From positions 1-47,374 of the forward strand of contig JAAFJB010000021.1 of the NCBI GenBank assembly GCA_013297995.1: 47,374 nucleotides of DNA, given 5' to 3'. This DNA comes from Chitinophagales bacterium. GTDB lineage: Bacteria > Bacteroidota > Bacteroidia > Chitinophagales > Chitinophagaceae. This document shows, in pieces, positions 30,158 through 47,374 of the stretch; positions within the stretch are counted from its first letter, which is position 1, and each line of letters starts with the position of its first letter. Both the position numbers and the translations under genes were made by a program. The notes below the pieces were generated by a model. The model saw only the letters and a list, made by a program, of their open reading frames with translations. It was not told where the DNA came from and searched no databases.

Positions 30158-30208
30158 GTGAAACAAAATACGCATATACATCATCATCATGAGCATCCCA
30201 TTGGGTAG
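30158..30208 (+). CDS. hisL: his operon leader peptide
   Basis: A short frame starts at GTG and encodes MKQNTHIHHHHEHPIG, 16 residues of which six are histidine, four in a row. It lies between a good promoter and a terminator directly upstream of hisG. In transcription attenuation, shortage of charged His-tRNA stalls the ribosome on these codons. The stop codon (30206-30208) lies inside the RNA strand that can form the antiterminator, so a ribosome that finishes the peptide would cover it. GTG is the only plausible start in frame downstream of the promoter. Confidence 0.82.
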   Translation: MKQNTHIHHHHEHPIG

Positions 30209-30273
30209 GCTATTGATGTGTATGATATAAATACAAATCATTTAAGCTTACCTGTTGGTAGGCTTTTTTATTT
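30204..30273 (+). promoter_or_regulatory. his attenuator (antiterminator/terminator switch)
   Basis: Terminator: AAGCTTACC (30244-30252) pairs with GGTAGGCTT (30257-30265), nine pairs with one G-U, around a TGTT loop, followed by TTTTTATTTT. Antiterminator: GGTAGGCT at 30204-30211 is an exact copy of the terminator 3' arm, so it can pair with AGCTTACC (30245-30252) and remove the terminator 5' arm. The 5' copy overlaps the hisL stop codon. No separate pause or protector hairpin is obvious, so this is a minimal two-state attenuator. The mechanism is inferred from the geometry. Confidence 0.8.
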
Positions 30274-30280
30274 TAATATC

Positions 30281-31165
30281 ATGAACAATCTAATGAGTAC
30301 AACACAAGAAATTAAGTTAAGACTGGCCATACAGAAAAGTGGTCGCCTCCACGATGATTCTATTAAACTATTAAAAGAATGTGGTATTGATATCAGCAAT
30401 GGCATGAATAAATTAAAGGCGGATGCTACTAATTTTCCACTTGAATTATTCTTTTTGCGCGATGATGATATTCCGCAATACGTAGAAGATGGTGTGGCTG
30501 ATATTGGTTTTGTGGGTGAGAATGTTGTTTTTGAAAAAAAGAAAAAAATCACCATTACCGAGAAATTGGGTTTTGGCAAATGCCGTCTCAGCATGGCCAT
30601 TCAACGCCATGAACAATACAACGGCACCCAGTTTTTAGCGGGTAAAAAAATTGCCACAAGCTATCCCGTTATTGTGGGTGATTTCTTAAAAGAGAAAGGC
30701 ATCAACGCCGAAATTCATGAAATCAGTGGTAGCGTAGAAATTGCCCCTGGCATTGGTCTCGCAGATGCCATTTGCGACCTTGTAAGCAGTGGTTCTACCT
30801 TGTTTATGAATGGACTAAAAGAAACGGAAGTGATTTTAGAATCCCAAGCCGTTCTGGTGAAAAACAATCAATTAGATGATGCTAGGCAACAATTGCTCAG
30901 TCGACTATTGTTCAGAATTCAATCCGTAAAAAAAGCAAAAAACAATAAATACATTCTATTAAATGCACCCAACCACAACCTCCAACAAATTATTGGCTTG
31001 TTGCCCGGTATGAGAAGTCCCACCGTGCTGCCACTGGCAGAGGAAGGATGGAGTAGTGTACATAGTGTATTAAATGAAAACGAGTTTTGGGATATCATTG
31101 AGCAACTAAAAGCTGCTGGTGCCCAAGGCATTCTGGTAGTGCCCATTGAAAAAATGATTATGTAG
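30281..31165 (+). CDS. hisG: ATP phosphoribosyltransferase, long form
   Basis: HisG makes phosphoribosyl-ATP from ATP and PRPP, the first and feedback-controlled step of histidine synthesis. The protein is about 294 residues (290 from the alternative ATG at 30293) and is the long, HisZ-independent type. It has a two-lobed catalytic part (KLRLAIQKSGRL, LRDDDIPQYVEDGVADIGFV, then the PRPP-binding loop EISGSVEIAPGIGLADAICD) and a C-terminal ACT-like domain that binds histidine (LPLAEEGWSSVHSVLNE, ending AQGILVVPIEKMI). The frame is open to 30218, but that start would lie upstream of the attenuator terminator, so it is rejected. hisD follows after 27 bases. Confidence 0.95.
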   Translation: MNNLMSTTQEIKLRLAIQKSGRLHDDSIKLLKECGIDISNGMNKLKADATNFPLELFFLRDDDIPQYVEDGVADIGFVGENVVFEKKKKITITEKLGFGKCRLSMAIQRHEQYNGTQFLAGKKIATSYPVIVGDFLKEKGINAEIHEISGSVEIAPGIGLADAICDLVSSGSTLFMNGLKETEVILESQAVLVKNNQLDDARQQLLSRLLFRIQSVKKAKNNKYILLNAPNHNLQQIIGLLPGMRSPTVLPLAEEGWSSVHSVLNENEFWDIIEQLKAAGAQGILVVPIEKMIM

Positions 31166-31192
31166 TCCATTGCCAAAAAACCAGCATATACT

Positions 31193-32473
31193 ATGGAGAA
31201 ATTTATAAACCCTACCAGAAATGAATGGTCGCAATTGTTACAAAGACCCGCCATTAATAATACTGAGTTAATTGAAAAAGTGAGCACCGTTTTGCAACAA
31301 GTGAAAGTGCAGGGTGATGCTGCGGTACAATATTTTACGCAGCAGTTTGATGGCGTTCTATTAACAGATTTTGTAGTGTCTGAAACCGAAATTGCAGAAG
31401 GGGTTGCGGCTGTGAGCAGTCCACTTAAAACAGCTATTGCCGCAGCTGCTGATAATATTCGGAAATTTCACCAGCCCCAATTGCAAGCACCTGAAATAAT
31501 AGAGACCATGCCCGGCATTCAATGCTGGCGCAAATCGGTGGGAATAGAAAAGGTGGGATTGTATATTCCTGGTGGTACGGCGCCCTTGTTTTCTACCATT
31601 CTTATGTTGGGCATTCCCGCGGTTATTGCAGGTTGTAAAGAGATCGTGCTTTGCTCACCTCCCGATAAAAATGGGAGGCTTCATCCCGCTATTTTATTCG
31701 CTGCTCAATTGGTGGGTATCACCAAAATATTCAAGATTGGTGGCGTGCAAGCTATTGCTGCTATGGCTTATGGCACGGCTTCTGTTCCTCAGGTGTATAA
31801 AATATTTGGCCCTGGCAACCAGTATGTAACCTGCGCCAAACAGCTGATTCAACAAGAAGGTATTGCCATTGATATGCCCGCTGGCCCTAGTGAAGTTTGT
31901 GTGTTGGCTGATGATTCTGCTAATCCTGAATTTGTGGCAGCGGATCTGCTGAGCCAAGCCGAACACGGCAGCGATAGTCAAGTTTTACTCGTAAGCACTT
32001 CTACATCACTTGTAGATGCAGTAAATCTTGCCTTAGAAAAGCAGTTGGCTGAACTTCCTCGAAAGGAAATGGCAGCAAGAGCACTGGAGAATAGTAAAGC
32101 CATTGTTTTAAATAATATAGATGATGCAATTGACTTGGTGAATGAATATGCGGCTGAACATTTAATTATTTCCTGCGAAAATGAGGAAGCCATTGGAGAT
32201 AGAATTGTGCAGGCAGGCTCTGTATTTCTCGGTAATTACTCTCCAGAAAGTGTGGGCGATTATGCCAGTGGAACCAACCATACTTTGCCTACAAATGGGT
32301 ATGCCAAAGCATATAGTGGGGTGAGTGTAGACAGTTTCTTAAAAAAAATCACGTACCAAAAACTTACTAGACTAGGATTACAAAATATTGCTCCTTCCGT
32401 AGAACTGATGGCGATGGCAGAGGGCTTGCAAGCGCACGCAGAAGCGGTGCGCATAAGATTGAAGAACGAATAA
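31193..32473 (+). CDS. hisD: Histidinol dehydrogenase
   Basis: HisD oxidises L-histidinol to histidine in two NAD-dependent steps using zinc. The 426-residue length is standard. Visible blocks are EKVGLYIPGGTAPLFSTILM, IFGPGNQYVTCAKQLIQ, the zinc-ligand segment ADLLSQAEHGSDSQVLLVS (Gln and His ligands), NEYAAEHLIISC and VGDYASGTNHTLPTNGYAKA. All active-site regions look intact. It is the second gene of the his operon, with hisC starting 19 bases later. Confidence 0.96.
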   Translation: MEKFINPTRNEWSQLLQRPAINNTELIEKVSTVLQQVKVQGDAAVQYFTQQFDGVLLTDFVVSETEIAEGVAAVSSPLKTAIAAAADNIRKFHQPQLQAPEIIETMPGIQCWRKSVGIEKVGLYIPGGTAPLFSTILMLGIPAVIAGCKEIVLCSPPDKNGRLHPAILFAAQLVGITKIFKIGGVQAIAAMAYGTASVPQVYKIFGPGNQYVTCAKQLIQQEGIAIDMPAGPSEVCVLADDSANPEFVAADLLSQAEHGSDSQVLLVSTSTSLVDAVNLALEKQLAELPRKEMAARALENSKAIVLNNIDDAIDLVNEYAAEHLIISCENEEAIGDRIVQAGSVFLGNYSPESVGDYASGTNHTLPTNGYAKAYSGVSVDSFLKKITYQKLTRLGLQNIAPSVELMAMAEGLQAHAEAVRIRLKNE

Positions 32474-32492
32474 AATCAATATAAATTAACCC

Positions 32493-33554
32493 ATGAACTT
32501 TGATTTGAATCTATTGGTGAGAAAAAATATTGCGCAGCTAGAGCCTTACTCTTCAGCGCGTGATGAATTCAGCGGTGCCGCTAAAGTATTTTTAGACGCC
32601 AACGAAAACAGTCTCGGATCCCCACTTACCAAATGGTATAACCGTTACCCAGATCCGCACCAACTGGCTATTAAACAAAAGCTTTCAGCCATTAAAGGCA
32701 TTGCAGCCGAACATATTTTTTTAGGCAATGGAAGCGATGAATGCATCGACCTTTTGTTCCGAAGTTTTTGCGAACCGGGTAGGGACAATGTGGTAATTTG
32801 TCCCCCCACTTATGGCATGTATGAAGTAAGTGCCAATATCAACGATGTGGAATTGAGAAGGGTGCCATTATTAGATGATTTTCAGCTGGATCTGGTTCAC
32901 CTTGAAAATCAAATTGATGCGCATACCAAAATCATTTGGCTTTGTTCTCCCAATAACCCAACGGGCAATTCACTCAATAGGGTTGATATGGAAACGGTAC
33001 TCAATAATTTCAACGGCATTGTAGTAATTGATGAAGCGTATATCAATTTTGCTCGTCAGAAATCTTTTGTACAAGAATTAGCCGACTATCCCAATCTGGT
33101 AGTGATGCAGACTTTTAGTAAGGCTTGGGGACTAGCAGGTTTGCGCCTTGGAATGGCTTTTGCCTCCACTACTATTATTCAAATACTCAATCGGGTTAAA
33201 CCCCCTTATAATATCAATCAAGCTACACAGGAATTAGCACTTAAAGCTTTGGATGAATTGGGTATGGTGAATGATATGATTAAAATATTGGTAGATATGC
33301 GTGATGCGCTCATACCCGTATTTGAATCCATGCCCTCTGTAGAGAAAGTATATCCCTCCGATGCTAATTTTATATTGGTGAAAATAAAAGACGCACGTAA
33401 AGTGTATGAATTCTTGCTGACCAAAGGCATTGTAATTCGGGATAGAACTAAGGTGAAATTGTGTGAGGATTGCTTGCGAATAACCATTGGAACAGAACAA
33501 GATAATACACAACTGATAGATGCCATGCAGGAATGGTATCAAATGAATGCTTAA
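32493..33554 (+). CDS. hisC: Histidinol-phosphate aminotransferase
   Basis: This PLP-dependent fold-type I aminotransferase converts imidazole-acetol phosphate to L-histidinol phosphate. The 353 residues include the N-terminal DANENSLGSP, the GNGSDECIDLLFRSF phosphate-cup region, LCSPNNPTGN, the Asp-x-Ala-Tyr motif VVIDEAYINFA, the PLP Lys in MQTFSKAWGLAGLRLGMAF near residue 210 and the C-terminal LRITIGTEQDNTQL with the substrate-binding Arg. Unrelated secreted redox genes follow 22 bases later instead of hisB. Confidence 0.95.
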   Translation: MNFDLNLLVRKNIAQLEPYSSARDEFSGAAKVFLDANENSLGSPLTKWYNRYPDPHQLAIKQKLSAIKGIAAEHIFLGNGSDECIDLLFRSFCEPGRDNVVICPPTYGMYEVSANINDVELRRVPLLDDFQLDLVHLENQIDAHTKIIWLCSPNNPTGNSLNRVDMETVLNNFNGIVVIDEAYINFARQKSFVQELADYPNLVVMQTFSKAWGLAGLRLGMAFASTTIIQILNRVKPPYNINQATQELALKALDELGMVNDMIKILVDMRDALIPVFESMPSVEKVYPSDANFILVKIKDARKVYEFLLTKGIVIRDRTKVKLCEDCLRITIGTEQDNTQLIDAMQEWYQMNA

Positions 33555-33576
33555 TTTCACTGCTTAATTTAGTTTT

Positions 33577-34821
33577 ATGCAAAAAATACTCTGTTCTTTC
33601 TTAGCCCTTAGTTGGCTGGTTTGTTGTTCAGCTCAATCCCCCGAATCCGTTGCTATTAAAACACCAGCGGGTTTCAGTACCGTTGTTGTAGGAAAAGATT
33701 TTGGACGCGTTCGCCATATTGCCATAAACAGTAATGGGGATATTTATATGAAACTGGAAAAACTTTTAAAAGGCAAAGGGATTATTCGGTTAAGGGATAA
33801 AAATAAGGATGGAGTGATGGATGATACCCTTGCTTTTGGTAATTATATCGGCAGTGGTATCGCGTTGAAGAATGGCTATTTATATGCATCATCCAACAGC
33901 GAGGTATTCCGGTATGCATTGGATGCGCAGCAAAATTTGGTGAGCCCCGATCAGCCTGAAAGAATCGTTACCAAGTTGATTGATAAGCGCCAGCATGCCA
34001 ACAAAACTTTTGCTTTGGATAATTCGGGTAATATTTATGTAAATATTGGGGCACCTTCTAATGTTTGCCAAGAATTAGATCGACAAAAAGGGTCTAAAGG
34101 AATGAGTCCTTGCTCCATTCTCGACTCCGCCGCAGGCATCTGGCAGTTTAAAGTAGATAAGCTAGACCAGACTTATGCAGATGGAATTCGCTATGCTACT
34201 GGTATTAGGAATAGTATGGGTCTCGATTGGAACCATGAAGTAAATGATCTCTATATAACCATACACGGAAGGGATATGCTTTTTCAAGACTTTCCAGCCA
34301 TGTATAACCAAAAACAGGGAGCAGAACTTCCCGCTGAAACATTTTATAGGGTGAAGAAAGGCGACGATTGCGGATGGCCTTATGCACATTGGGATCATTT
34401 TCAAAACAAAAAAATATTGAACCCCGAATATGGTGGTGATGGTAAAAAAGAAGGAGCCCCCAATGCTATTAGTCCCCTAGTTGGATTTCCCGGTCACTTA
34501 GCTCCCAATGCTTTGCTAATTTATACAGGAGATCAATTTCCCGCTCGATATAAAAACGGGGCTTTCATTGCTTTTCATGGCAGTTGGAATAGGTCGCCCG
34601 AGCCACAAGAAGGATTTTATATTGTATTTATACCCATGAAAAACGGAATACCTACGGGCAAATGGGAAGTATTTGCCGATGGTTTTTCTGGCTTAGAAAA
34701 AGTAAATAATTTGGGGGCTGTAAAACATCGCCCATGTGGACTAGCACAGGGTGCGGATGGTTCACTTTATGTGTCAGATGATAATAAAGGCTATATCTGG
34801 AAAATCAAATACAACCAATAA
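33577..34821 (+). CDS. Secreted PQQ-type sugar dehydrogenase-like beta-propeller (sorbosone dehydrogenase family)
   Basis: The protein has 414 residues with an N-terminal signal (1-19, LSWLVCCSAQ; it could be Sec or lipoprotein type). The rest looks like a six-bladed GSDH/sorbosone-dehydrogenase propeller: HIAINSNGDIYMKL, RDKNKDGVMDDTLAFG, YATGIRNSMGLDWNHEVNDL, GDDCGWPYAHWD and FIAFHGSWNRSPEPQEGF, then HRPCGLAQGADGSLYVSDDN. The H-G-S-W-N-R and R-P-x-G-L blocks are characteristic. Related enzymes use PQQ, but binding is inferred and PQQ synthesis genes are not seen. With the cytochrome c gene 5 bases downstream, it forms a probable dehydrogenase/electron-acceptor pair inside the his operon. 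Confidence 0.85.
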   Translation: MQKILCSFLALSWLVCCSAQSPESVAIKTPAGFSTVVVGKDFGRVRHIAINSNGDIYMKLEKLLKGKGIIRLRDKNKDGVMDDTLAFGNYIGSGIALKNGYLYASSNSEVFRYALDAQQNLVSPDQPERIVTKLIDKRQHANKTFALDNSGNIYVNIGAPSNVCQELDRQKGSKGMSPCSILDSAAGIWQFKVDKLDQTYADGIRYATGIRNSMGLDWNHEVNDLYITIHGRDMLFQDFPAMYNQKQGAELPAETFYRVKKGDDCGWPYAHWDHFQNKKILNPEYGGDGKKEGAPNAISPLVGFPGHLAPNALLIYTGDQFPARYKNGAFIAFHGSWNRSPEPQEGFYIVFIPMKNGIPTGKWEVFADGFSGLEKVNNLGAVKHRPCGLAQGADGSLYVSDDNKGYIWKIKYNQ

Positions 34822-34826
34822 ATACC

Positions 34827-35231: not shown

Positions 35232-35233
35232 TT

Positions 35234-36364
35234 ATGCAAAGAATTTTATTCATTGACAGAGATGGGGTGGTATTGAAAGAGCCGCCCTCAGATTTTCAAG
35301 TGGACAGTGTTGATAAAACCAGTTTTGTGCCAGGTGCTATTACGCAACTAGCAAGTATAGCTGCTGACTTTGATTTTTATAAAGTAATGGTCACCAACCA
35401 AGATGGTTTGGGTACTGCCAGTTATCCCGAAACAAATTTCCAACCCTATCATAGTTTGATGCTGCGCACTTTAGCAGGAGAGGGATTTGTATTTGATGAA
35501 ATGATTGTTGATAAAACATTTGCAGCCGATAACCAGCCCACCCGTAAGCCTGGTACGGCTTTACTAAAACATTTTATAGATAATCCTGCATTTGATCTGG
35601 CTCATTCATTTGTAATTGGCGATAGGTGGAGTGATATTCAGTTGGCTATTAATTTGGGATGCAAAGCCATTTATTTAAAATCGGGCTTGCACCAATTAAC
35701 CGAAGCGCAGTCAGCCGCTTATAAAGATGCCATAGTACTGGAAACCGACAATTGGAAAGCTATTTATGCGTTTTTAAAGTTGGGATTAAGAAAAGTACAG
35801 CATGAAAGAAATACCAATGAAACCAAGATTTCTATCCACCTAAATATGGATGGAACGGGTAAGGCGGATATAGAAACGGGACTCGGATTTTTTAATCATA
35901 TGCTGGAACAAATAGCTCGTCATGGTAAAATGGATTTATCTATTCATACCCAAGGCGACTTGCATATAGATGAGCACCATACTATTGAAGATACGGGTAT
36001 TGCATTGGGAGAAGCTTTTGCGCTAGCGTTGGCAGACAAAAGAGGAATGGAACGGTATGGATTTGCTTTGCCAATGGATGAGGCCGAAGCCAAAGTATTA
36101 ATAGATTTTGGCGGAAGGAATTGGTTGGTATGGGATGCAGATTTTAAACGAGAGAAAGTAGGGGAGATGCCTACTGAAATGTTCTTTCATTTTTTTAAGA
36201 GTTTTAGTGATGGCGCAAAATGCAATTTGAATATATCTTGCAAAGGAGACAATGAACACCATAAAATAGAAGCCATCTTTAAAGCCTTCGCCAAAGCCAT
36301 ACGGATGGCAGTGAAGCGAGATCCATTTTCCAATCAATTGCCTTCTACCAAGGGGGTGTTATAG
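35234..36364 (+). CDS. hisB: Bifunctional histidinol-phosphatase / imidazoleglycerol-phosphate dehydratase
   Basis: This 376-residue fusion covers the seventh and ninth steps of the histidine pathway. Residues 1-175 are a HAD phosphatase with nucleophile and acid/base Asp in LFIDRDGVVLKE (D8, D10), MVTNQDGLGTASYP, TRKPGTALLKHF and FVIGDRWSDIQLA. Residues 193-376 are the IGP dehydratase with GLGFFNHMLEQIARHGKMDL, DEHHTIEDTGIALGEA and DNEHHKIEAIFKAFAKAI carrying the metal-binding His triplets. The zinc loop Cys/His set found in E. coli HisB-N is absent here (DKTFAADNQPTRKPG instead). It sits 2 bases behind the cytochrome gene. Confidence 0.95.
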   Translation: MQRILFIDRDGVVLKEPPSDFQVDSVDKTSFVPGAITQLASIAADFDFYKVMVTNQDGLGTASYPETNFQPYHSLMLRTLAGEGFVFDEMIVDKTFAADNQPTRKPGTALLKHFIDNPAFDLAHSFVIGDRWSDIQLAINLGCKAIYLKSGLHQLTEAQSAAYKDAIVLETDNWKAIYAFLKLGLRKVQHERNTNETKISIHLNMDGTGKADIETGLGFFNHMLEQIARHGKMDLSIHTQGDLHIDEHHTIEDTGIALGEAFALALADKRGMERYGFALPMDEAEAKVLIDFGGRNWLVWDADFKREKVGEMPTEMFFHFFKSFSDGAKCNLNISCKGDNEHHKIEAIFKAFAKAIRMAVKRDPFSNQLPSTKGVL

Positions 36365-36383
36365 TCATCGGTTCTAAGTGTTA

Positions 36384-36413
36384 TTTGAAAATTTTGTAAC
36401 TTTCTTATCATTG
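36384..36413 (+). promoter_or_regulatory. Possible promoter upstream of the outer-membrane protein gene
   Basis: TTTG (36384-36387), 18 bases and TATCATTG (36406-36413) resemble a -33/-7 promoter with one mismatch in the -7 box. It suggests that the next gene can be transcribed independently of the his operon. Confidence 0.4.
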
Positions 36414-36429
36414 CAAATAAATTATTGTT

Positions 36430-37440: not shown

Positions 37441-37445
37441 CCGAA

Positions 37446-37996: not shown

Positions 37997-38027
37997 TTTG
38001 CAATCTGCTCAACTTGCCCCATATTTG
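37997..38027 (+). promoter_or_regulatory. Promoter of the trp-his operon
   Basis: TTTG (37997-38000), 19 bases and CATATTTG (38020-38027) match the Bacteroidota -33/-7 promoter with one mismatch (C for T). Transcription would start within a few bases of the leader-peptide ATG at 38032. Confidence 0.65.
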
Positions 38028-38031
38028 TAAA

Positions 38032-38088
38032 ATGAATTTAACAAATAAGCATTGGTGGTGGCATACAAACTCTATACGGGGATTGTAG
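38032..38088 (+). CDS. trpL: trp operon leader peptide
   Basis: This 18-codon frame from ATG encodes MNLTNKHWWWHTNSIRGL with three consecutive Trp codons at positions 8-10. It starts 4 bases behind a good promoter and is followed by a strong terminator before trpE. Consecutive Trp codons in a peptide this short at this place are the hallmark of trp attenuation. The last codons (GGG GAT TG) and the TAG overlap the strand that can pair with the terminator 5' arm, the same design as hisL. Confidence 0.85.
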   Translation: MNLTNKHWWWHTNSIRGL

Positions 38089-38151
38089 TGGCATAGCCAA
38101 TACTTTATTGAATATATTTTCAAGGCCCCAGATAAAACTGGGGTTTTTTTT
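38078..38151 (+). promoter_or_regulatory. trp attenuator (antiterminator/terminator switch)
   Basis: Terminator: CCCCAG (38126-38131) and CTGGGG (38138-38143) form a perfect stem with an ATAAAA loop, followed by eight T. Antiterminator candidate: GGGG (38078-38081) with CCCC (38126-38129) and TTG (38083-38085) with CAA (38121-38123), separated by a small internal loop. This pairing would remove the terminator 5' arm when a ribosome stalls on the Trp codons upstream. The pairing is weaker than in the his attenuator, so the antiterminator is less certain than the terminator. Confidence 0.72.
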
Positions 38152-38177
38152 ATGAAATAATTGAACGGATTTACCAT

Positions 38178-39596
38178 ATGAAAAAAATTAAAATAGCAAC
38201 AACAGGTAAGAAAATATTAGGCGATGTATTTACGCCCGTAGGTATTTACTTGCGTTTAAGAGATCGTTTTCGCGACACCATTTTATTAGAAAGTACCGAT
38301 CACCATGTGGCTGATAATAGTTATTCTTTTATTTGCATCAATGCCATTGCGGGTATTGAAATAAGTGCTGCCAATAGCTTGGAATTTAAACTACCTGGAC
38401 AAGAACCCCAAAAACAAACCATCAGTAAGGAACAAGAAGTGCCTGCTATTGTCTGGAATTTTATGCAGCATTTTGAAATGGAAATTCCCGCAGAAAAAGA
38501 ATTTAAATTTGCACAAGGTCTCTATGGATACACTTGCTTTGATGCGGTTGCTTTTTTTGACTCCGCTACTGGTGCACCCGATCTTTCTCCTGCTATTCCA
38601 TTGATGCGATACCGTTTGTACCAGTATATTATTGCATTTAACCATTTCAAAGATGAATTAATTTTTATTGAAAATAAAATAGCGGGTGTGCTGAGTGAAA
38701 TGGCTGTGGTGGAGTCTCTTATTAAGCGAAAAGATATTCCGGTATTTCCCTTTCAGTTGGTAGGTTCAGAGACTTCGAATATGAGCCATGAAGCTTACAC
38801 AGAAATGGTTGCTAAAGGCATGGCGCGTTGTATGCGAGGGGATGTTTTTCAGATTGTATTAAGCAGACGATTTGAGCAATCATTCAAAGGTGATGAGTTC
38901 AACGTGTACCGCGCGCTGCGCAGCATCAATCCCTCCCCTTATTTATTTTTCTTTGATTATGGCGACTATAAGCTAATGGGTTCTTCTCCCGAAGCGCAGC
39001 TTATTATTAAAAATGGTAAAGCCACTGTACATCCCATTGCTGGCACTTTTAAAAGAACGGGTGATGATGCAGTGGATCATCTAGAGGCAGAGCGGTTATT
39101 ATTGGATGCTAAGGAAAATGCCGAACACGTGATGCTGGTAGATTTAGCCAGAAACGATTTAAGCCGAGTATGTGATGAAGTGGTAGTAGCGCAGTACAGA
39201 CAGGTGCAATATTACAGTCACGTTATACATTTAGTAAGTGAAGTTACCGGTAAGGTTCGCGCTGGTTATAATCCTTTTGAGTTATTGGCAAAGACCTTTC
39301 CAGCAGGCACGCTGAGCGGTGCGCCCAAAATTAAAGCACTAGAAATCATCAACCAGTATGAGCCTACCAAAAGAAGTTTTTATGGAGGTGGTATTGGTTT
39401 TATAGGTTTTGATGGCAGTTGTAATCACGCCATTATGATTCGTAGTTTTTTAAGTAAAAATAACACACTTATTTCTCAGGCTGGTGCTGGGGTGGTTGCG
39501 GCAAGTGTTCCTGCAAACGAATTACAAGAAGTAAATAATAAATTGAATGCACTGAAGCAAGCTGCAAAATTTGCGGAATCAGTACACTTACAATAA
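38178..39596 (+). CDS. trpE: Anthranilate synthase component I
   Basis: TrpE makes anthranilate from chorismate and ammonia delivered by TrpG. The 472-residue protein has the N-terminal tryptophan-feedback motif LLESTDHH (about residues 36-43) and the chorismate-binding core with GDVFQIVLSRRFEQSF, NPSPYLFFFDYGDY, GSSPEAQLI, HPIAGTFKRTGDD, LVDLARNDLSRVC, FPAGTLSGAPKIKALEII and FYGGGIGFIGFDGS. Catalytic segments are intact. It is the first structural gene behind the trp attenuator. The stop overlaps an upstream ATG of the trpG frame (TAATG). Confidence 0.96.
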   Translation: MKKIKIATTGKKILGDVFTPVGIYLRLRDRFRDTILLESTDHHVADNSYSFICINAIAGIEISAANSLEFKLPGQEPQKQTISKEQEVPAIVWNFMQHFEMEIPAEKEFKFAQGLYGYTCFDAVAFFDSATGAPDLSPAIPLMRYRLYQYIIAFNHFKDELIFIENKIAGVLSEMAVVESLIKRKDIPVFPFQLVGSETSNMSHEAYTEMVAKGMARCMRGDVFQIVLSRRFEQSFKGDEFNVYRALRSINPSPYLFFFDYGDYKLMGSSPEAQLIIKNGKATVHPIAGTFKRTGDDAVDHLEAERLLLDAKENAEHVMLVDLARNDLSRVCDEVVVAQYRQVQYYSHVIHLVSEVTGKVRAGYNPFELLAKTFPAGTLSGAPKIKALEIINQYEPTKRSFYGGGIGFIGFDGSCNHAIMIRSFLSKNNTLISQAGAGVVAASVPANELQEVNNKLNALKQAAKFAESVHLQ

Positions 39597-39637
39597 TGAA
39601 TATAAATTCATCAAAGCAAATTTTACAATCAATAAAA

Positions 39638-40219
39638 ATGAAAATATTAGTCTTCGATAATTACGATTCCTTTACTTATAATCTGGTGCATTTGGTAGTA
39701 AAAATTACCGGCGTTCAGGTAGATGTATTTCGAAATGATGAACTGCCTTTAGAACAAGTGGCCAAATACGATAAAATTATTTTATCGCCTGGTCCTGGTA
39801 TCCCCTCAGAAGCAGGGATTTTACTTGATCTGATAAAAGCGTATGCCCCCACTAAAAGTATATTGGGTGTATGCCTTGGCCACCAAGCAATTGGTGAGGC
39901 TTTTGGTGGAACTTTGATGAATTTGTCTACCGTATTTCATGGGGTAGCTACGCCTATTCAGATAAAATCGGAGGAGTCTGGTATTCGCAGCAAATTGTTT
40001 GAGGATTTGCCCAATGAAATGATGGTGGGGCGTTACCATAGTTGGGTGGTGAGTGATAAAAATTTTCCGACTGATCTTGAAATTACAGCGCGTGATGCCA
40101 ACGGTTTTATCATGGGCTTGCAACATAAAACCTATGACGTACAAGGGGTTCAGTTTCATCCGGAAAGCGTGCTTACGTCCGATGGGGAAAAAATGATTAG
40201 GAATTGGTTGGAGGGGTAG
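39638..40219 (+). CDS. trpG: Anthranilate synthase component II (glutamine amidotransferase)
   Basis: This class I glutamine amidotransferase supplies ammonia to TrpE. From the ATG at 39638 the protein has 193 residues and starts at the family N-terminus MKILVFDNYDSFTYNLVH. An ATG at 39596, overlapping the trpE stop, would add 14 unconserved residues and cannot be excluded as a coupled start. The catalytic triad is visible: Cys in GVCLGHQAIGEAF near residue 79, and His and Glu in GVQFHPESVLT near 170. The oxyanion region LSPGPGIPSEAG is present. A short 8-bp repeat array separates it from trpD. Confidence 0.94.
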   Translation: MKILVFDNYDSFTYNLVHLVVKITGVQVDVFRNDELPLEQVAKYDKIILSPGPGIPSEAGILLDLIKAYAPTKSILGVCLGHQAIGEAFGGTLMNLSTVFHGVATPIQIKSEESGIRSKLFEDLPNEMMVGRYHSWVVSDKNFPTDLEITARDANGFIMGLQHKTYDVQGVQFHPESVLTSDGEKMIRNWLEG

Positions 40220-40221
40220 AG

Positions 40222-40269
40222 GTCGGGTCGTCGGAAGGTCGGAATGTCGGAACGTCGGGTCGTAGGAAC
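40222..40269 (+). repeat. 8-bp period minisatellite between trpG and trpD
   Basis: Six head-to-tail units of eight bases: GTCGGGTC, GTCGGAAG, GTCGGAAT, GTCGGAAC, GTCGGGTC and GTAGGAAC. The stretch is far more GC-rich than its surroundings and is not coding in any obvious frame. It starts 2 bases after the trpG stop and ends 30 bases before the trpD start. Confidence 0.85.
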
Positions 40270-40299
40270 GATAGATTATTAAAGTGAAAAAATTAGGAA

Positions 40300-41292
40300 A
40301 TGAAAAAAATACTTCAATATTTATTTGAACATAAAACACTCTCTCGTGAGCAAGCCCAAGAAGTGCTGATTAATATTGCTTCGGGAATGTTTACGGAAGC
40401 TGAGATGTCCGCTTTTATTACCGTCTTTTTAATGCGCAGTATCACCATTGAGGAACTACAAGGTTTTAGAGATGCACTGCTGCATTTGTCCGTTAAAGTA
40501 GATTTAGACGGTTCGGAATTAATGGATATTGTGGGAACGGGCGGCGATGGTAAAAACACATTTAATATTTCTACCCTCGCATGTTTTATAGTGGCAGGGG
40601 CGGGACAAAAAGTGGCCAAACACGGCAACTACGGGGCTTCCAGCATCAGTGGTGCTTCTAACGTAATGGAACAACTCGGCTATCAATTTAAAAATGATAG
40701 TGCTGCCTTGCAGAGGGAGTTGACCAAAACCAATATTTGTTTTCTTCACGCTCCACTATTTCATCCCGCTTTAAAACTAGTAGGCCCTATCCGTAAAAAT
40801 TTGGGTGTTCGTACTTTCTTTAATATGCTTGGCCCCATGGTAAATCCAGCAAAACCAGCTTTTCAACTGGTAGGCGTGTATAATTTAGAAATGGCAAGAA
40901 TTTACAATTACCTCTTGCAACAGTCGGGTAAAGCTTTTACCATAATTCACAGCTTAGATGGCTACGATGAAATTTCACTTACCAACGATACCAAAATAAT
41001 TACACGCGAAGGAGAGCAAATTTTTACGCCGCAACAGTTGGGTAAAAGAATGGTTTCACCGCAAGATATTTATGGAGGTAATTCAGTAGAAGAGTCCGCC
41101 CAGCTCTTCACTAAAATTATTAAGGGAGAAGGTAGTTGGGCACAGAATGCAGTGGTGCTGGCCAATGCCGCTATGGCATTGAAGTGTACCGGTGCTTTTG
41201 GAGATTATGAAGCTGCTTATCTTGCAGCTATTGATAGCCTCGAAAGCGGTAAAGCCTATGCGGCTTTACAACAACTGATAGAAATGCAGTAG
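40300..41292 (+). CDS. trpD: Anthranilate phosphoribosyltransferase
   Basis: TrpD transfers phosphoribose from PRPP to anthranilate. The 330-residue protein has the N-terminal helical domain (SREQAQEVLINIASGMFTEA), the glycine-rich PRPP loop VGTGGDGKNTFNIST near residues 77-91, the substrate segment KHGNYGASSISGASNVMEQL, RKNLGVRTFFNMLGPMVNPA and HSLDGYDEISLTNDTKI. It is not fused to trpG. It follows trpG after an 80-base gap holding the minisatellite and precedes trpC by 68 bases. Confidence 0.96.
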   Translation: MKKILQYLFEHKTLSREQAQEVLINIASGMFTEAEMSAFITVFLMRSITIEELQGFRDALLHLSVKVDLDGSELMDIVGTGGDGKNTFNISTLACFIVAGAGQKVAKHGNYGASSISGASNVMEQLGYQFKNDSAALQRELTKTNICFLHAPLFHPALKLVGPIRKNLGVRTFFNMLGPMVNPAKPAFQLVGVYNLEMARIYNYLLQQSGKAFTIIHSLDGYDEISLTNDTKIITREGEQIFTPQQLGKRMVSPQDIYGGNSVEESAQLFTKIIKGEGSWAQNAVVLANAAMALKCTGAFGDYEAAYLAAIDSLESGKAYAALQQLIEMQ

Positions 41293-41360
41293 GGAGTTCA
41301 ATTTGTTTATGGTATAAATGATGATTGACAATTTATAGAAAGCCAAAATAAAAATCAACA

Positions 41361-42158
41361 ATGAATATATTAGATAAAATAATTGCTCAGAAAAAACTTG
41401 AAGTGGCTCAGCGAAAAGCAGTAGTAAGCACTGCCGAACTGGAAAAAGAATATTTCTTTTCCAAAGAAACCCTTTCCCTAAAACAGTTTATTCTGGATCC
41501 CAACAAAACGGGCATTATTGCAGAGTTTAAGCGAAAATCACCCAGTAAGGGTGTAATCAACCAGCAAGCTACTGTTGAAGAAGTCACTATGGCTTATTCC
41601 CAATATGGCGCATCGGGATTATCTGTGCTTACTGATGAATCTTTTTTCGGCGGTACATTAAACGATTTAACCCTTGCCACCATCAACGAAATACCCATAC
41701 TCAGAAAGGATTTTATGATTGATGACTACCAATTGGTTGAAGCAAAAGCTTTTGGCGCCGAAGTGATTTTGTTGATAGCTGCCTGTTTAAGTCCCCTCCA
41801 AGTGAAACAAATGGCTTCCACTGCTAAATCATTGGGATTAGAAGTACTATTAGAAATTCACAATCAAGCGGAATTAGAACATATCTGTCCCGAAATAGAT
41901 TTGGTGGGGGTAAATAACCGCAACCTCAAAAATTTTGAAGTGAGTATTGATATTTCCCTTCAATTAATTCAACAAATACCTCCTGATAAAATAGCGGTTG
42001 CAGAAAGTGGTATCAATAATGTAAATACCATCTTAACTTTACAGCAAGCAGGATTTAAGGGCTTTCTCATAGGAGAACATTTTATGAAAGAAGCCAACCC
42101 TTCGATTGCTTTTGCCGATTTTGTAAAGCAACTAAAACAAGCACAAAATGCGGGCTAA
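41361..42158 (+). CDS. trpC: Indole-3-glycerol-phosphate synthase
   Basis: TrpC closes the pyrrole ring of CdRP to indole-3-glycerol phosphate with loss of CO2. This (beta/alpha)8 barrel has 265 residues. Diagnostic blocks are the helix MNILDKIIAQKKLEVAQRK, IIAEFKRKSPSKG (catalytic Glu and Lys), SVLTDESFFGG, ILRKDFMIDDYQLVEAKAFG, DLVGVNNRNLKNFEVSI and VAESGI. It is monofunctional; the trpF gene overlaps its end by 11 bases in another frame, so translational coupling is likely. Confidence 0.96.
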   Translation: MNILDKIIAQKKLEVAQRKAVVSTAELEKEYFFSKETLSLKQFILDPNKTGIIAEFKRKSPSKGVINQQATVEEVTMAYSQYGASGLSVLTDESFFGGTLNDLTLATINEIPILRKDFMIDDYQLVEAKAFGAEVILLIAACLSPLQVKQMASTAKSLGLEVLLEIHNQAELEHICPEIDLVGVNNRNLKNFEVSIDISLQLIQQIPPDKIAVAESGINNVNTILTLQQAGFKGFLIGEHFMKEANPSIAFADFVKQLKQAQNAG

Positions 42159-42789
42159 AGTATGTGGTTTAAACAGTGTGGCGCAAATGATGGCATTGGA
42201 TGAAATGGGCGTTGAATTTGCTGGTTTTATCTTCTACCCCAAATCGCCTCGCTATATTTTGAAACAGGTTGCCAAAGAAGCCCTTAAAAAAGCAAAGGGG
42301 CAACAGATTAATAAAGTAGGGGTTTTTGTGAATGAACAACAAGATGAAGTGATTAGAATGGTGGATGAATGTGGTCTTTATCTGGTTCAGCTTCATGGGG
42401 ATGAAACACCCCGGTACTGTGAAAAAATTGCGGACTATGTAACGGTTATCAAAGCATTCAGATTGAGAAACGACGACGATGTTTTATGGAAAATTAAGGA
42501 CTATCAAAATGTAGTGGATATGTTTTTATTTGATACCGCTGCACTGGATTATGGGGGTACCGGTAAGCAGTTCGATTGGAATATTCTCAGTAAGCTCCAT
42601 ATCAATAAGCCCTTCTTTTTAAGTGGAGGAATTGGCCCTGATGATATTGAATCACTCACCGCATTTTCTAAAGACCCAGTGGCTAAAAACCTATTCTCGG
42701 TAGATATAAACAGTAGGTTTGAAAGCTCCCCAGGCGTAAAAAATATGGATCTGGTAAAACCTTTTATTCAACAATTGAAGCTTATTTAA
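42148..42789 (+). CDS. trpF: Phosphoribosylanthranilate isomerase
   Basis: TrpF performs the Amadori rearrangement of PRA to CdRP. The 213-residue barrel has the general-base Cys in AKVCGLNSVAQM (residue 5), GFIFYPKSPRYI, GLYLVQLHGDETPRYC, the catalytic Asp in FLFDTAALDYGGTGKQFDW and the phosphate site FFLSGGIGPDDI, with SVDINSRFESSPGVKN near the C-terminus. It overlaps trpC by 11 bases and the next gene by 1 base (TAATG), so all three are tightly coupled. Confidence 0.95.
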   Translation: MRAKVCGLNSVAQMMALDEMGVEFAGFIFYPKSPRYILKQVAKEALKKAKGQQINKVGVFVNEQQDEVIRMVDECGLYLVQLHGDETPRYCEKIADYVTVIKAFRLRNDDDVLWKIKDYQNVVDMFLFDTAALDYGGTGKQFDWNILSKLHINKPFFLSGGIGPDDIESLTAFSKDPVAKNLFSVDINSRFESSPGVKNMDLVKPFIQQLKLI

Positions 42790-43304
42790 TGAACCATAAA
42801 ATTCTTATTTTGTTTTTGGGATTCAGTTTCACTTCTGTTGTGCTAAATGCGCAACAACTGACCAACGTATTCATCAATCAAAATGGAAAAGCAGCTTATC
42901 GTTTTGCTATGAACGGTGTTTATCTCTTGCTGAATGATATGGGTAAAATAACCGAAATTAAAACAGATGCTTTTGGCACTATTGTGTATGATACCAATAA
43001 AAGAGTAGAACAAATAGGGGATATGAAAATAGGATTCAATTACCAAAACCAAGTAAACAGTATTGGCAATTATTCCTTACAATACGATCATGCTGGCAGG
43101 GTTGATCAAGTTGGGAATATTGTTTTTAAATACAATTACAATGGTATGCTGGTTAATATTTCTAATTACCTAATTATGTACAATCCCAATGGCTCGGTTG
43201 ATAAATTTGGCGACTATAAAATTTATTATAATTACAACGCACAGGTACAACGAATTGACGATAGCAAGGGACTTCTTTTACTCCAATTAAATTATACTAA
43301 GTAA
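42789..43304 (+). CDS. Exported protein with five perfect-length 16-residue repeats, inside the trp operon
   Basis: The protein has 171 residues, and I do not recognise the family. It has a signal peptide (1-21, ending LNAQ) and a short N-terminal region. Repeats of exactly 16 residues start at 73, 89, 105, 121 and 137, with a partial sixth at 153: VEQIGDMKIGFNYQNQ, VNSIGNYSLQYDHAGR, VDQVGNIVFKYNYNGM, LVNISNYLIMYNPNGS, VDKFGDYKIYYNYNAQ. The pattern V-x-x-I-G-N/D-Y-x-I-x-Y-N-Y-N-G-x suggests a beta-hairpin or YD/RHS-like solenoid in the periplasm or on the surface. It is coupled to trpF (TAATG), and trpB starts 3 bases after it. Any link to tryptophan is unknown. Confidence 0.8.
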   Translation: MNHKILILFLGFSFTSVVLNAQQLTNVFINQNGKAAYRFAMNGVYLLLNDMGKITEIKTDAFGTIVYDTNKRVEQIGDMKIGFNYQNQVNSIGNYSLQYDHAGRVDQVGNIVFKYNYNGMLVNISNYLIMYNPNGSVDKFGDYKIYYNYNAQVQRIDDSKGLLLLQLNYTK

Positions 43305-43307
43305 AAA

Positions 43308-44507
43308 ATGAATAATAATTTTCAACAACCAGATTTACAAGGATACTACGGTTCATTCGGAGGTGCATATATTCCTGAAATGCTTCACCAAAACGTAGCA
43401 GAACTGCGCACCCAGTATTTATCCATCATGGATGAACCCGATTTTAAGGCAGAAGTGAATGCTTTATTAAAAGATTATGTGGGTCGCCCCACCCCTTTGT
43501 TTTTAGCAGAACGGTTGAGTGAAGCCTACCAAACTAATATTTATTTAAAACGAGAAGATCTTTGCCACACCGGTGCCCACAAAATTAATAATACCATTGG
43601 TCAGATTTTACTGGCGCGTCGCTTGGGAAAGACCCGCATTATTGCAGAAACCGGTGCTGGTCAACACGGCGTTGCTACTGCAACCGTATGCGCGCTAAAA
43701 GGAATGGAATGTATTGTTTATATGGGGGAGAAAGATATAGCGCGACAAGCTCCAAATGTAGCTCGTATGAAAATGTTGGGGGCTACTGTAATTCCTGCTA
43801 CCAGTGGAAGCAAAACATTGAAAGACGCCACCAATGAAGCCATACGCGATTGGATCAATCATCCCCATAATACCCATTATATTATTGGGAGTGTGGTAGG
43901 GCCGCATCCTTATCCTGATATGGTGGCTCGTTTTCAAAGTATTATTAGTGAAGAAATTCGGCGACAGTTAAAAGAAAAAACAGGTCATGAATTGCCAACG
44001 CATGTGGTGGCTTGTGTAGGTGGGGGTAGTAATGCCGCAGGTGCTTTCTATCATTTTTTAAATGAACCTACGGTGCAATTGGTGGCAGTAGAAGCAGCGG
44101 GGCATGGGGTTCACACTGGTATGAGTGCCGCCACTACCCAATTGGGTAAGCCCGGTATTTTACACGGCAGCAAGAGTCTTGTAATGCAAACAGCAGATGG
44201 GCAGGTAGTAGAGCCGCATAGTATTTCTGCCGGCCTCGATTACCCAGGTGTAGGGCCACTTCACGCGCATTTGTACCAGAGTGGGAGGGGTGTTTTTTTA
44301 AGTGCTACTGATGCTGAAGCATTGGAAGCTGCTTTTTATATTAGCAAGACCGAAGGCATTATTCCTGCTCTCGAAACTGCTCACGCTTTTGCTGTATTGG
44401 GTAAAATGAAATTTGCAAAATCAGATCGGGTTGTGGTTTGTTTAAGCGGTAGGGGCGATAAGGATTTGGCCACTTATATGGAAGCGATGGGGGAAGATCT
44501 TAAATAA
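43308..44507 (+). CDS. trpB: Tryptophan synthase beta chain
   Basis: TrpB condenses indole with serine using PLP. The 399-residue protein starts with YYGSFGGAYIPEMLHQNV. It has the PLP Lys in KREDLCHTGAHKINNTIGQI near residue 89, AETGAGQHGVATATVCAL, the phosphate loop VACVGGGSNAAGAFYHF and GLDYPGVGPLHAHL. It is the standard TrpB1 type that pairs with TrpA. It lies 3 bases behind the repeat-protein gene and 6 bases before trpA. Confidence 0.97.
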   Translation: MNNNFQQPDLQGYYGSFGGAYIPEMLHQNVAELRTQYLSIMDEPDFKAEVNALLKDYVGRPTPLFLAERLSEAYQTNIYLKREDLCHTGAHKINNTIGQILLARRLGKTRIIAETGAGQHGVATATVCALKGMECIVYMGEKDIARQAPNVARMKMLGATVIPATSGSKTLKDATNEAIRDWINHPHNTHYIIGSVVGPHPYPDMVARFQSIISEEIRRQLKEKTGHELPTHVVACVGGGSNAAGAFYHFLNEPTVQLVAVEAAGHGVHTGMSAATTQLGKPGILHGSKSLVMQTADGQVVEPHSISAGLDYPGVGPLHAHLYQSGRGVFLSATDAEALEAAFYISKTEGIIPALETAHAFAVLGKMKFAKSDRVVVCLSGRGDKDLATYMEAMGEDLK

Positions 44508-44513
44508 AAAATT

Positions 44514-45296
44514 ATGAGTAGAATTCAACAAATATTTGAACAGAAAAAACAAAGGGTGCTGAATGTTTATTTTACGGCTGGCTTTCCAGCACTGAATGAC
44601 ACTTTGCCCATCATGCAATCCTTAGCTGCAGCAGGTGCAGACTTAATTGAAATAGGCATGCCATATAGTGATCCCTTGGCCGATGGTGTGGTGATCCAGG
44701 AGAGCAGCAGTAAGGCATTGGCAAATGGAATGAGTATTTCCATTTTGTTTGAACAACTAAAATTAGCTCGAAAAGATGCCGCACTGCAATCTACTGGTAT
44801 TATATTGATGGGATATATGAATCCTGTATTACAATATGGATTCGAAAAATTCTGTGCCGATGCAGCAGCCGTAGGCGTAGATGGGTTGATACTGCCCGAC
44901 TTGCCCGAATATGAATTTGAAAAAGAATATGGAGCCATCATTAAAAAATATGGACTCGACTTTATTTTTCTGGTCACCCCCGAAACAACGCCCGAGCGGG
45001 TGCGGCACTTAGATGCACTTAGCAGCGGTTTTATATATGCCGTTAGTTCTTCCGCAACTACGGGTGGTGCTACCGATTTTGCTGCGGTAGATATTTATCT
45101 GGAACGCTTGCATAAAATGAATTTAAAAAATCCAATACTGGTAGGTTTTGGTATCAAAGATAAATCCAGCTTTAATGCAGCCGTTAAGTTTACCAACGGG
45201 GCAATTATTGGGACTGCATTTATTAAAGCATTGGCCGATTCAAAAGATATTCAACAAACCACTTTCAGTTTTATAAAACCTATTATAAGCGTTTAA
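44514..45296 (+). CDS. trpA: Tryptophan synthase alpha chain
   Basis: TrpA cleaves indole-3-glycerol phosphate and channels indole to TrpB. The 260-residue barrel has LNVYFTAGFPALNDTL, the catalytic Glu in GADLIEIGMPYSDPLADGVV, MGYMNPVLQYGFEKF, the second catalytic Asp region DGLILPDLPEYEFE and the phosphate loop VGFGIKDKSSF with GAIIGTAFIK. All key residues are present. The stop lies only 11 bases before hisH, with no terminator or promoter-like sequence between, so hisH is expected to be cotranscribed. Confidence 0.96.
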   Translation: MSRIQQIFEQKKQRVLNVYFTAGFPALNDTLPIMQSLAAAGADLIEIGMPYSDPLADGVVIQESSSKALANGMSISILFEQLKLARKDAALQSTGIILMGYMNPVLQYGFEKFCADAAAVGVDGLILPDLPEYEFEKEYGAIIKKYGLDFIFLVTPETTPERVRHLDALSSGFIYAVSSSATTGGATDFAAVDIYLERLHKMNLKNPILVGFGIKDKSSFNAAVKFTNGAIIGTAFIKALADSKDIQQTTFSFIKPIISV

Positions 45297-45307
45297 TTAA
45301 TAGAGCA

Positions 45308-45898
45308 ATGAATACCGTAATTATCAAATACAATGCAGGCAATATACAGTCCGTTCTCTATGCCCTTGAGCGAATAGGCGCAAGCGCAGTGGTGAGTGAT
45401 GATCCTGCCACTATTGCTGCTGCTGATAAAGTGATTTTCCCAGGCGTGGGCGAAGCCAGTACGGCCATGAATTACTTGAAAGAAAGAAAATTAGATCAAC
45501 TGATTATTTCCTTACAACAACCCGTACTCGGCATCTGCCTCGGTATGCAGTTGATGTGTACATACAGTGAAGAAAATAATACTTCCTGTTTAGGAATTTT
45601 TAATGAGCAAGTAAAACGATTTGAGCCAGGGCCTGCATCACTTAAAATACCTCAGATCGGCTGGAATAATATTCAGCAATTAAAAACGCCATTATTTCAT
45701 TCAATAAAAGAAAACAGCTATTGTTATTTTGTACACGGGTATTATGCCGAATATGGCTTGTACACCATTGCTACTACCAACTATGGAATTGATTACAGTG
45801 CGGCATTGCATAAAAATAATTTTTATGGCACACAATTTCATCCAGAGAAAAGTGCCGATATTGGTGAACAGTTGCTCAAAAATTTTATTGCATTATAA
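45308..45898 (+). CDS. hisH: Imidazole glycerol phosphate synthase, glutaminase subunit
   Basis: HisH hydrolyses glutamine and passes ammonia to HisF. The 196-residue protein has KYNAGNIQSVLYALERIGA, FPGVGEASTAMNYL, the nucleophile Cys in VLGICLGMQLMCTYSEE near residue 77, IGWNNIQQLK, the FVHGYYAEY strand and the His/Glu pair in GTQFHPEKSADIG. It follows trpA directly and so lies in the trp transcript although it belongs to the histidine pathway. hisA starts 31 bases later. Confidence 0.96.
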   Translation: MNTVIIKYNAGNIQSVLYALERIGASAVVSDDPATIAAADKVIFPGVGEASTAMNYLKERKLDQLIISLQQPVLGICLGMQLMCTYSEENNTSCLGIFNEQVKRFEPGPASLKIPQIGWNNIQQLKTPLFHSIKENSYCYFVHGYYAEYGLYTIATTNYGIDYSAALHKNNFYGTQFHPEKSADIGEQLLKNFIAL

Positions 45899-45929
45899 TA
45901 TTGTTTCAACTAAAATATAAAATTAAATT

Positions 45930-46625
45930 ATGGTTCTTATTCCTGCAATAGATATCATCAACGGCAAATGTGTTCGCCTTACACAGGGAGATTATTCCCA
46001 GCAGAAAATTTACCGCGAACATCCATTAGAAGTAGCCAAAGAATTTGAAGCAGCGGGTATTGAAAGGCTTCACTTGGTAGATTTGGATGGTGCAAAAGCA
46101 GGAGCTGTACAGAACTGGAAGGTGTTGGAAGAAATAGCTACTCATACGAAATTGGTGATTGATTTTGGTGGGGGAATTAAAACCGAAAGCGACTTAAATA
46201 TTGTATTCAATTCAGGTGCTGCCTTGGCTACCATTGGAAGCCTTGCCGTAAAATCTCCACTCGTTTTTAGTGAATGGATTGCCAACTATGGTGCCGATAA
46301 ATTTCTATTGGGTGCAGATGTAAAAGGAGAAAAGATTGCAGTAAGTGGCTGGTTGGAAACAACAGAAATTTCTGTCTTCGATTTTATGCAACAATATATT
46401 GATAGAGGAATGACACAGATTTTTTGTACCGATATAAGCAAAGACGGAAAGCTGGAAGGGCCTTCCTTAGAACTCTATCAAAAAATTATAACACAGTTCC
46501 CCACGCTTCATTTTATTGCCAGCGGCGGCGTAAGTTGTATGGAAGATTTGGATGCACTAAAAGCAATTGGTTGCAGTGGTGTGATTGTAGGGAAAGCCAT
46601 CTACGAAGGAAAAATAAAAATATAA
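45930..46625 (+). CDS. hisA: ProFAR isomerase (phosphoribosylformimino-AICAR ribotide isomerase)
   Basis: HisA catalyses the Amadori rearrangement of ProFAR to PRFAR. The 231-residue barrel has [20 protein letters not shown] with the first catalytic Asp at residue 8, [17 protein letters not shown], the phosphate loop [15 protein letters not shown], the second catalytic Asp in [31 protein letters not shown] and [15 protein letters not shown]. It is a typical single-substrate HisA; a separate trpF is present, so PriA-like dual activity is not required. hisF follows after 25 bases. Confidence 0.96.
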
Positions 46626-46650
46626 TTATTCGCATCTCAAACTATTCAAC

Positions 46651-47374
46651 GTGCTTACTAAACGCATCATACCTTGTCTCGATATTAAAGATGGCCGCAC
46701 CGTTAAAGGGGTGAATTTTGAACAGATTCGTGATGCAGGTGATCCAGTAGAATTGGCTACCATCTATGCACAAGAGGGAGCGGACGAATTGGTGTTCTTA
46801 GACATCACCGCTACCGTTGAGCGTAGGAAAACATTAAGCGAATTGGTGAATAAAATTTCTAGGCATATTAATATTCCTTTTACCGTTGGGGGGGGCATTT
46901 CCTCTGTTGAAGACGTTCAGGTATTGTTGCAGCATGGTGCTGATAAAATTTCTATAAATAGTTCTGCTTTTAAAAACCCTTCTTTAATTGGTGAGCTGGC
47001 CAAAGAATTTGGAAGTCAGTGCGTAGTGCTTGCCATTGATACCAAGCAGGAAGCAGATGGTAATTGGTATGTTTACCTGAATGGTGGTCGCACTAAAACA
47101 GACTCTTTTTGTCTCGATTGGGCGCGACAAGGAGTGGATTTAGGCGCGGGTGAAATTCTCCTTACTTCTATGAATAACGACGGTACCAAGCAGGGTTTTG
47201 CCTTAGATATTACCCGCGAATTATCTACCCAACTATCTGTACCGGTGATTGCTTCTGGTGGGGCGGGCAATATGCCCCATTTTGCAGATGTATTTGAGCA
47301 ATCCAATGCAGACGCAGCCCTTGCCGCCAGTATTTTTCATTTTAAAGAAATAACGGTTCCCCATTTAAAACAAT
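46651..47374 (+). CDS. hisF: Imidazole glycerol phosphate synthase, cyclase subunit (3' end outside window)
   Basis: The frame starts at GTG (46651-46653) and runs off the right edge after 241 codons, about 10 short of the usual length. It reads [20 protein letters not shown] with catalytic Asp near residue 11. Further on come [16 protein letters not shown], the phosphate loop [17 protein letters not shown], the second catalytic Asp in [13 protein letters not shown] near 130, [19 protein letters not shown] and [17 protein letters not shown]. This is the HisF signature. GTG is the only start at the expected N-terminus. The gene continues the trp-his transcript, and hisI(E) would be expected next. 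Confidence 0.95.

Follow-up and report, generated by a model that had tools for sequence, protein, structure and literature searches.

Histidine codons beside the tryptophan codons of a trp leader in Chitinophagaceae: a candidate bivalent attenuator in front of trp-hisHAF

We describe a tryptophan (trp) operon lying within the histidine (his) operon of a Chitinophagales bacterium (Chitinophagaceae; assembly GCA_013297995.1), on contig JAAFJB010000021.1, whose 47,374 nucleotides, one whole contig of a 3.2-Mb assembly, are called the window here. His codons flank the three Trp codons of the trp leader peptide, and we lean, without great confidence, to the reading that the attenuator in front of trp-hisHAF is bivalent, sensing Trp and His. 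The hisHAF genes, stranded behind trpA, would probably be kept under histidine control through a trp leader that senses both amino acids, and the front half of the pathway, hisGDCB, would be under a His-codon attenuator of its own. What is new here is the probable bivalence of the trp attenuator, the two leader-peptide attenuators and the nested operon being the ordinary part.

The trp leader peptide MNLTNKHWWWHTNSIRGL is encoded at 38032..38088 on the plus strand (as are all features below unless stated), with an ATG start at 38032, and reads MNLTNKH-WWW-H-TNSIRGL. It lies downstream of a putative promoter (TTTG ... CATATTTG; 37997..38027) that was read from the sequence and follows a pattern common to relatives. 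The control codons CAT TGG TGG TGG CAT (38050..38064), defined from the sequence and the leader comparison, place a CAT codon on either side of TGGTGGTGG, a feature that the initial annotation had overlooked. In folds of the leader RNA, ACAAACTCT (38065..38073) is the 5' arm of a masking (1:2) hairpin and pairs with GGGGATTGT; alternatively, the GGGG antiterminator arm (38078..38081) can pair with the CCCC arm of the terminator, a stem-loop with a T-run found by terminator scan at 38122-38147 (38122..38152 as annotated). A scan with Rfam 15 (4227 families, gathering score) gave no match in the window.

The trp operon being placed within the his operon, hisHAF would form the last part of the trp transcript. 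With the leader ribosome stalled on one of the three Trp codons or on either flanking His codon, the ACAAACTCT arm would be covered or prevented from pairing, freeing GGGG to pair with the CCCC arm and letting transcription continue through trpEGDCF-orf-BA-hisHAF. For the ribosome to advance, block GGGG and allow the terminator to form, charged tRNA-Trp and charged tRNA-His would both have to be in ample supply. The initial annotation had proposed that a shortage of His would raise only HisGDCB; this is probably wrong, since CAT codons lie on both sides of the TGG triplet at positions where a stall is predicted to give read-through, and since a flanking His is present in 90/90 fused leaders of the window's family. 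The leaders, the terminator and the association described below were read from the sequence or computed; stalling at the His codons and read-through upon His shortage are what we infer.

For comparison, 80 named contigs (many with Chitinophagaceae or Sediminibacterium in the title) and 100 genome stretches belonging to the window's family (f1) were annotated using the window's proteins. Loci are called fused when hisH is linked behind trpA, and they were picked partly by this adjacency state, so that the counts do not give the prevalence of fusion. Tandem-Trp leaders were recognised in 97 of the 104 fused and all 29 separate family loci having trpE, and a hairpin with a T-run lies between leader and first gene in 124/130 family leaders. 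The seven fused loci lost to the leader filter had no tandem-Trp candidate, three of them owing to short or missing upstream DNA. In a first pass that included duplicates, His stood right after the Trp codons (His+1) in 94/97 fused and 17/29 separate family leaders, the codon at this place in the fused leaders being CAT (84), CAC (10) or CAA (3). The three fused exceptions in the family (L157, L168 and L172), all with WWWQ and from one genus, carry a His immediately ahead of the Trp codons. When His on either side is counted (flanking His) and duplicates are removed, the trait is found in 90/90 fused versus 15/27 separate family leaders, and in 111/115 versus 39/91 leaders across all families (206 leaders). 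Family f16 contributes 18/22 fused and 21/33 separate leaders with the trait, and f36 contributes 3/3 and 0/1; the remaining families have no fused leaders, and only 3/30 of their separate leaders carry a flanking His, most having other residues there. Elsewhere in the leader, His is not enriched with fusion (20/1767 residues in fused versus 26/1160 in separate leaders).

The association persists when phylogeny is taken into account. Trees were built with FastTree from TrpE, TrpB and TrpD together (joint tree) and, as a second tree, from TrpE, and two-trait Mk models in which the His rates were dependent on or independent of trpA-hisH linkage were compared by likelihood ratio (LR; 2 degrees of freedom). 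For the 206 leaders, the LR was 25.6 for His+1 and 30.3 for flanking His on the joint tree, and 26.3 and 31.9, respectively, on the TrpE tree; within the window's family alone, the values were 22.0 and 29.8. With 182 leaders, the LR of 29.1 was matched by none of 100 parametric bootstraps, whose maximum was 11.0. The estimated rate of flanking-His loss was 2.25 in the separate state versus 0.06 in the fused state. His directly before the Trp codons (26/107 fused, 0/75 separate; LR 24.4 over all 182) was tried as a stand-alone trait and retained only within the flanking trait. The sole fused leader without flanking His in the 182 set is that of L264 (G498); the hisH match of this genome has one in-frame TGA, by error or decay.

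These sets were assembled as follows. Removal of near-identical TrpE copies reduced 196 leaders to 182 and, later, 220 to 206. Loci of unknown fusion state (short contig, no hisH, or hisH 19.8 kb off or at a contig start) were excluded from the tests. After the 182 set, 25 genomes of f16 were brought in to the extent that their fusion state was known, and 3 of their fused leaders lack His; fusion in f16 was called from trpE-hisH coordinates (6.3-10.7 kb, same strand), with annotated stretches for L198, L200, L202, L215 and L226. From the outgroup, 49/60 loci entered; 10 were without a candidate leader, and L233 (WRWQ, fusion unknown) was excluded. L238 was counted as separate on only 25 bases 3' of trpA, and without it the count for separate leaders outside f1, f16 and f36 is 3/29. 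Where two candidate leaders were found, the one nearest trpE was taken (L261, L279, L292, L308, L309 and L310, which entered or were copied into the tests, and L302, which was dropped). A leader with WW only was accepted if the next residue was H, Q, L, S or Y.

Folding of the leaders places the Trp and His codons within one effective stall window. In these masking folds the ribosome footprint was removed, its leading edge being set by us at 15 bases from the first base of the P-site codon, and the folds describe the equilibrium of a partial transcript rather than its kinetics. With the Trp codons numbered 0, 1 and 2 in the A site, so that the His after them is +3, the mean probability that the terminator 5' arm pairs upstream in 80 fused leaders was 0.79-0.80 from -1 to +3, 0.76 at +4, 0.39 at +5 and 0.28 at +6. 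For the leader in the window it was 0.65-0.66 from the codon before WWW through the codon after the second His, followed by 0.31 and 0.21. In silico, the antiterminator is thus favoured upon a stall at the control codons, and the values at positions -1 and +3 resemble those at the Trp codons themselves. A ribosome halted at His is thus predicted to have the same effect as one halted at Trp.

Several observations weigh against a bivalent attenuator. Other leader features also track fusion, namely, N+3 (LR 19.0, 206 set), S+4 (LR 9.5) and the presence of three Trp codons (LR 11.2, 182 set), which suggests that the whole leader may be better kept in fused lineages; a T+2 control shows no tie to fusion (LR 4.5, 206 set). 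Family f16 alone gives no signal (LR 0.4) and so fails as an independent confirmation, the families other than the window's are borderline when pooled (LR 5.7, p 0.057), and the either-side trait was defined after the data had been seen. Upstream DNA is present at three further fused loci (L042, L060 and L069, with L142 apparently from the same genome as L069), yet no tandem-Trp leader was found there. At one or two, the His codons are few, and many regulatory codons are described as important for the sensitivity of an attenuator (PMC1183508). As to the folds, upstream pairing in the window climbs back to about 0.5 at the last two sense codons before falling to 0.22 at the stop, and 16 separate leaders have the same stall window, so that the fused and separate groups are not told apart. 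Moreover, the His codon lies within a leader stem (mean pairing 0.75 in 89 fused leaders), and its third base tracks its partner (CAT:A 65, CAC:G 4, CAT:G 4, CAA:U 2 in fused leaders). The constraint on the RNA is therefore real, and structure alone could hold the codon in place.

These points leave some room, on balance a minor share, for an alternative in which hisHAF still belongs to the trp transcript but Trp is the only amino acid that the leader senses, the His codon being a side effect of the RNA stem and of the leader as a whole being better conserved in linked lineages. The pairing of the codon and the covariation of its partner would fit such an alternative, as would the ties of the N+3, S+4 and three-Trp controls to fusion and the behavior of f16, in which the signal is missing and 21/33 separate leaders keep His. 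However, separate relatives retain the stem with other codons (TAT, CTT and CAG), and His is kept in 6/89 fused leaders in which it is poorly paired, which indicates that pairing does not demand histidine. All fused leaders of the window's family keep a flanking His, even where it lies on the other side of the Trp codons, and the loss rates in the two states differ by a far larger factor for His than for the codons next to it. The extra His codons are strongly associated with downstream his genes in the window's family, an association that is weaker in other leader features, absent and so unconfirmed in f16, and confounded by stem pairing.

In the initial annotation, hisHAF was placed 11 bases behind trpA, closing a trp operon that carries a Trp-codon attenuator; this holds, and the operon also has a trp promoter of its own. 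Across deduplicated fused loci, the window included, trpA and hisH lie a median of 18 bases apart (range, -4 to 971), and in 62/90 the gap is at most 60 bases. In the window, pattern, weight matrix and terminator scan detected neither promoter nor terminator signals in the junction (45297..45307). A strict Bacteroidetes promoter pattern matches at the his leader (30118..30149) and nowhere near trpA-hisH, but with 4 matches in the window versus 2.8 expected the pattern alone is weak. In the form TTTG-N-TAnnTTTG it was dropped as too insensitive, being found in 22/117 trp leaders, 0/90 junctions and 1/270 background windows, and a weight matrix trained on trp leaders took its place. A sigma-70 scan was likewise set aside, its sites being no commoner than in shuffles (30 versus 30.7). 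The matrix scored 3.2 at the junction in the window versus 17.5 at its his leader, where the 95% background level is 11.0. Scores above that level were obtained for 5/90 junctions, which is the chance rate, 108/117 trp leaders (the training set) and 12/18 his leaders, and junction scores resemble those of the interior of trp genes (Mann-Whitney U test, p 0.72). The single terminator-like site in 90 trpA-hisH gaps lies within the gap of 971 bases. The earlier proposals that this junction lacks a promoter and terminator and that hisHAF is under trp attenuation therefore gain support, such sites being no commoner than chance over 90 fused loci.

From this gene order and the missing junction signal we infer co-transcription: the trp promoter very probably drives hisHAF, and the trp attenuator very probably governs it as well. 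Conversely, we regard it as highly improbable that hisHAF has its own promoter or another control inside trpA or hisH, the trp attenuator then mattering little for these genes. An atypical promoter could escape a matrix that was trained on trp leaders and misses 6/18 his leaders, and in a few fused loci trpA and hisH lie hundreds of bases apart. Against this stand the short gaps, here and in the median, the background-level junction scores over 90 loci and the retention of trpA-hisH linkage across many genera.

Gene order was compared among relatives, as the initial annotation had suggested, and the trp block lies between hisB and hisH wherever the stretch covers hisB. One order often seen runs hisG-D-C-(dehydrogenase-cytochrome c)-hisB-trpEGDCFBA-hisH-A-F. 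In the deduplicated fused loci, including the window, hisB lies upstream of trpE on the same strand in 59/90 (54/79 of those with at least 3.5 kb of upstream sequence) and within 310 bp of trpE in 24/90, while hisA is also seen in 83 and hisF in 80; in the separate loci hisB is upstream in 1/27. The window conforms in that its trp genes lie between hisB and hisH on the same strand, though a minus-strand gene also sits between hisB and trpE. In L157, L168 and L172, hisH lies behind trpA with no hisA or hisF match in the stretch covered, and in L194, L198, L200, L248 and L251, from two other families of the class, hisHAF lies behind trpA with 1.0-2.2 kb in between.

Linkage of trpA and hisH has changed repeatedly, with 18 parsimony changes on the 182-leaf tree, which suggests that cells manage without it. 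The nested order might hence be neutral, an insertion of one operon without regulatory meaning in which basal read-through suffices for hisHAF, but it is widely retained in the family and the leader His codons go with linkage, which makes this unlikely. It is an even question whether a bivalent Trp+His attenuator couples the two separate pathways throughout the family since one operon was inserted into the other, acting also as an internal gate for transcripts from the his promoter where hisB ends at most 310 bp from trpE. Such a gate would explain a need to open on His shortage as well.

The last 17 kb of the window hold hisG-hisD-hisC, two unrelated genes, hisB, a DUF6268 gene, a minus-strand DUF2147 gene, trpE-G-D-C-F, a short open reading frame (ORF) and trpB-trpA-hisH-hisA-hisF. 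Genes were placed from ORFs and family models (NCBIfam and Pfam): hisG at 30218..31165 (longest ORF, start GTG 30218; the first ATG, 30317, was used in the family scan), hisD at 31193..32473, hisC at 32493..33554, the bifunctional hisB at 35234..36364, trpE, trpG, trpD, trpC, trpF, the short ORF, trpB and trpA at 38178..45296, hisH at 45308..45898, hisA at 45930..46625 and hisF at 46651..47374, its frame running to the contig end. HisG, HisD, HisC, the bifunctional HisB, TrpA, HisH, HisA and HisF reach NCBIfam equivalog cut-offs, and TrpG reaches that of a subfamily model; TrpD, TrpC, TrpF and TrpB match Pfam models, and TrpE has trpE_most as its top match, yet below the cut-off (405 versus 518 bits). 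In the run hisG-D-C-B named in the initial annotation, hisC is separated from hisB by a glucose/sorbosone-dehydrogenase-like gene and a cytochrome c gene (33577-35231 in the window), as it also is in many relatives; neither gene is part of histidine synthesis. The DUF2147 gene (37446-37904) has the same place in 15/90 fused loci, the window counted. With the DUF6268 and DUF2147 genes between hisB and the trp leader, hisGDCB and trp-hisHAF form separate transcription units in this genome. The short ORF between trpF and trpB (42789-43304) has no Pfam match; its relatives occupy the same place in several loci (e.g., L015, L022 and L024), after a gap of about 1 kb in L045. No match to hisI (PRA-CH) was found in the window's own assembly (98.8% complete), and the gene probably lies in the assembly gap past hisF, where the contig stops. 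Among 8 relatives, the ORF next after hisF is hisIE in 7, as judged by eye, and none was called in the eighth.

The initial annotation also had hisGDCB preceded by a His-codon attenuator; this holds, and hisGDCB has a promoter of its own. Downstream of the Bacteroidetes-type promoter (30118..30149), the leader peptide MKQNTHIHHHHEHPIG is encoded at 30158..30208, with a GTG start at 30158, as read from the sequence and by script. The likely antiterminator arm GGTAGGCT (30204..30211) can pair with AGCTTACC at 30245-30252 (by eye, not folded), and the terminator stem-loop and T-run, also identified by eye, lie at 30244..30270. Among the 18 loci listed with tandem-His his leaders, none has Trp codons in the leader.

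The attenuators of the ilvGMEDA and thr operons have leader codons for several amino acids. The trp leader of the window resembles them in that one leader ORF holds codons for each product of the controlled genes; it differs in that its two amino acids come from separate pathways joined by gene order alone. Both operons are named as attenuated in PMC1183508. With the E. coli trp attenuator, as described there, the window shares a leader ORF with tandem Trp codons, competing hairpins and a terminator; unlike it, the operon of the window carries his genes, has His codons flanking the Trp codons and is preceded by a Bacteroidetes-type promoter. According to a 2010 survey, leader-peptide systems were known in Proteobacteria and Actinobacteria only, before the survey added Firmicutes (PMC2965389). 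The nested his-trp order itself is already known from two species, Thermoflavifilum thermophilum and Filimonas lacunae, in which trp genes interrupt the his operon (PMC8305728, 2021). As in the window, the gaps there are short, and the authors suggest one operon; the accessible parts of that paper hold no leader or attenuator analysis, whereas here hisB lies upstream of trpE in 59/90 deduplicated fused family loci and the leaders were compared.

Our analysis describes the common Trp attenuator of a phylum on which searches of open-licence papers yielded little. The many linkage changes within the class provide a natural experiment for comparison. The analysis also offers a testable account of how cells cope when one operon lands within another: the attenuator between the two his halves appears to retain codons for the second amino acid.

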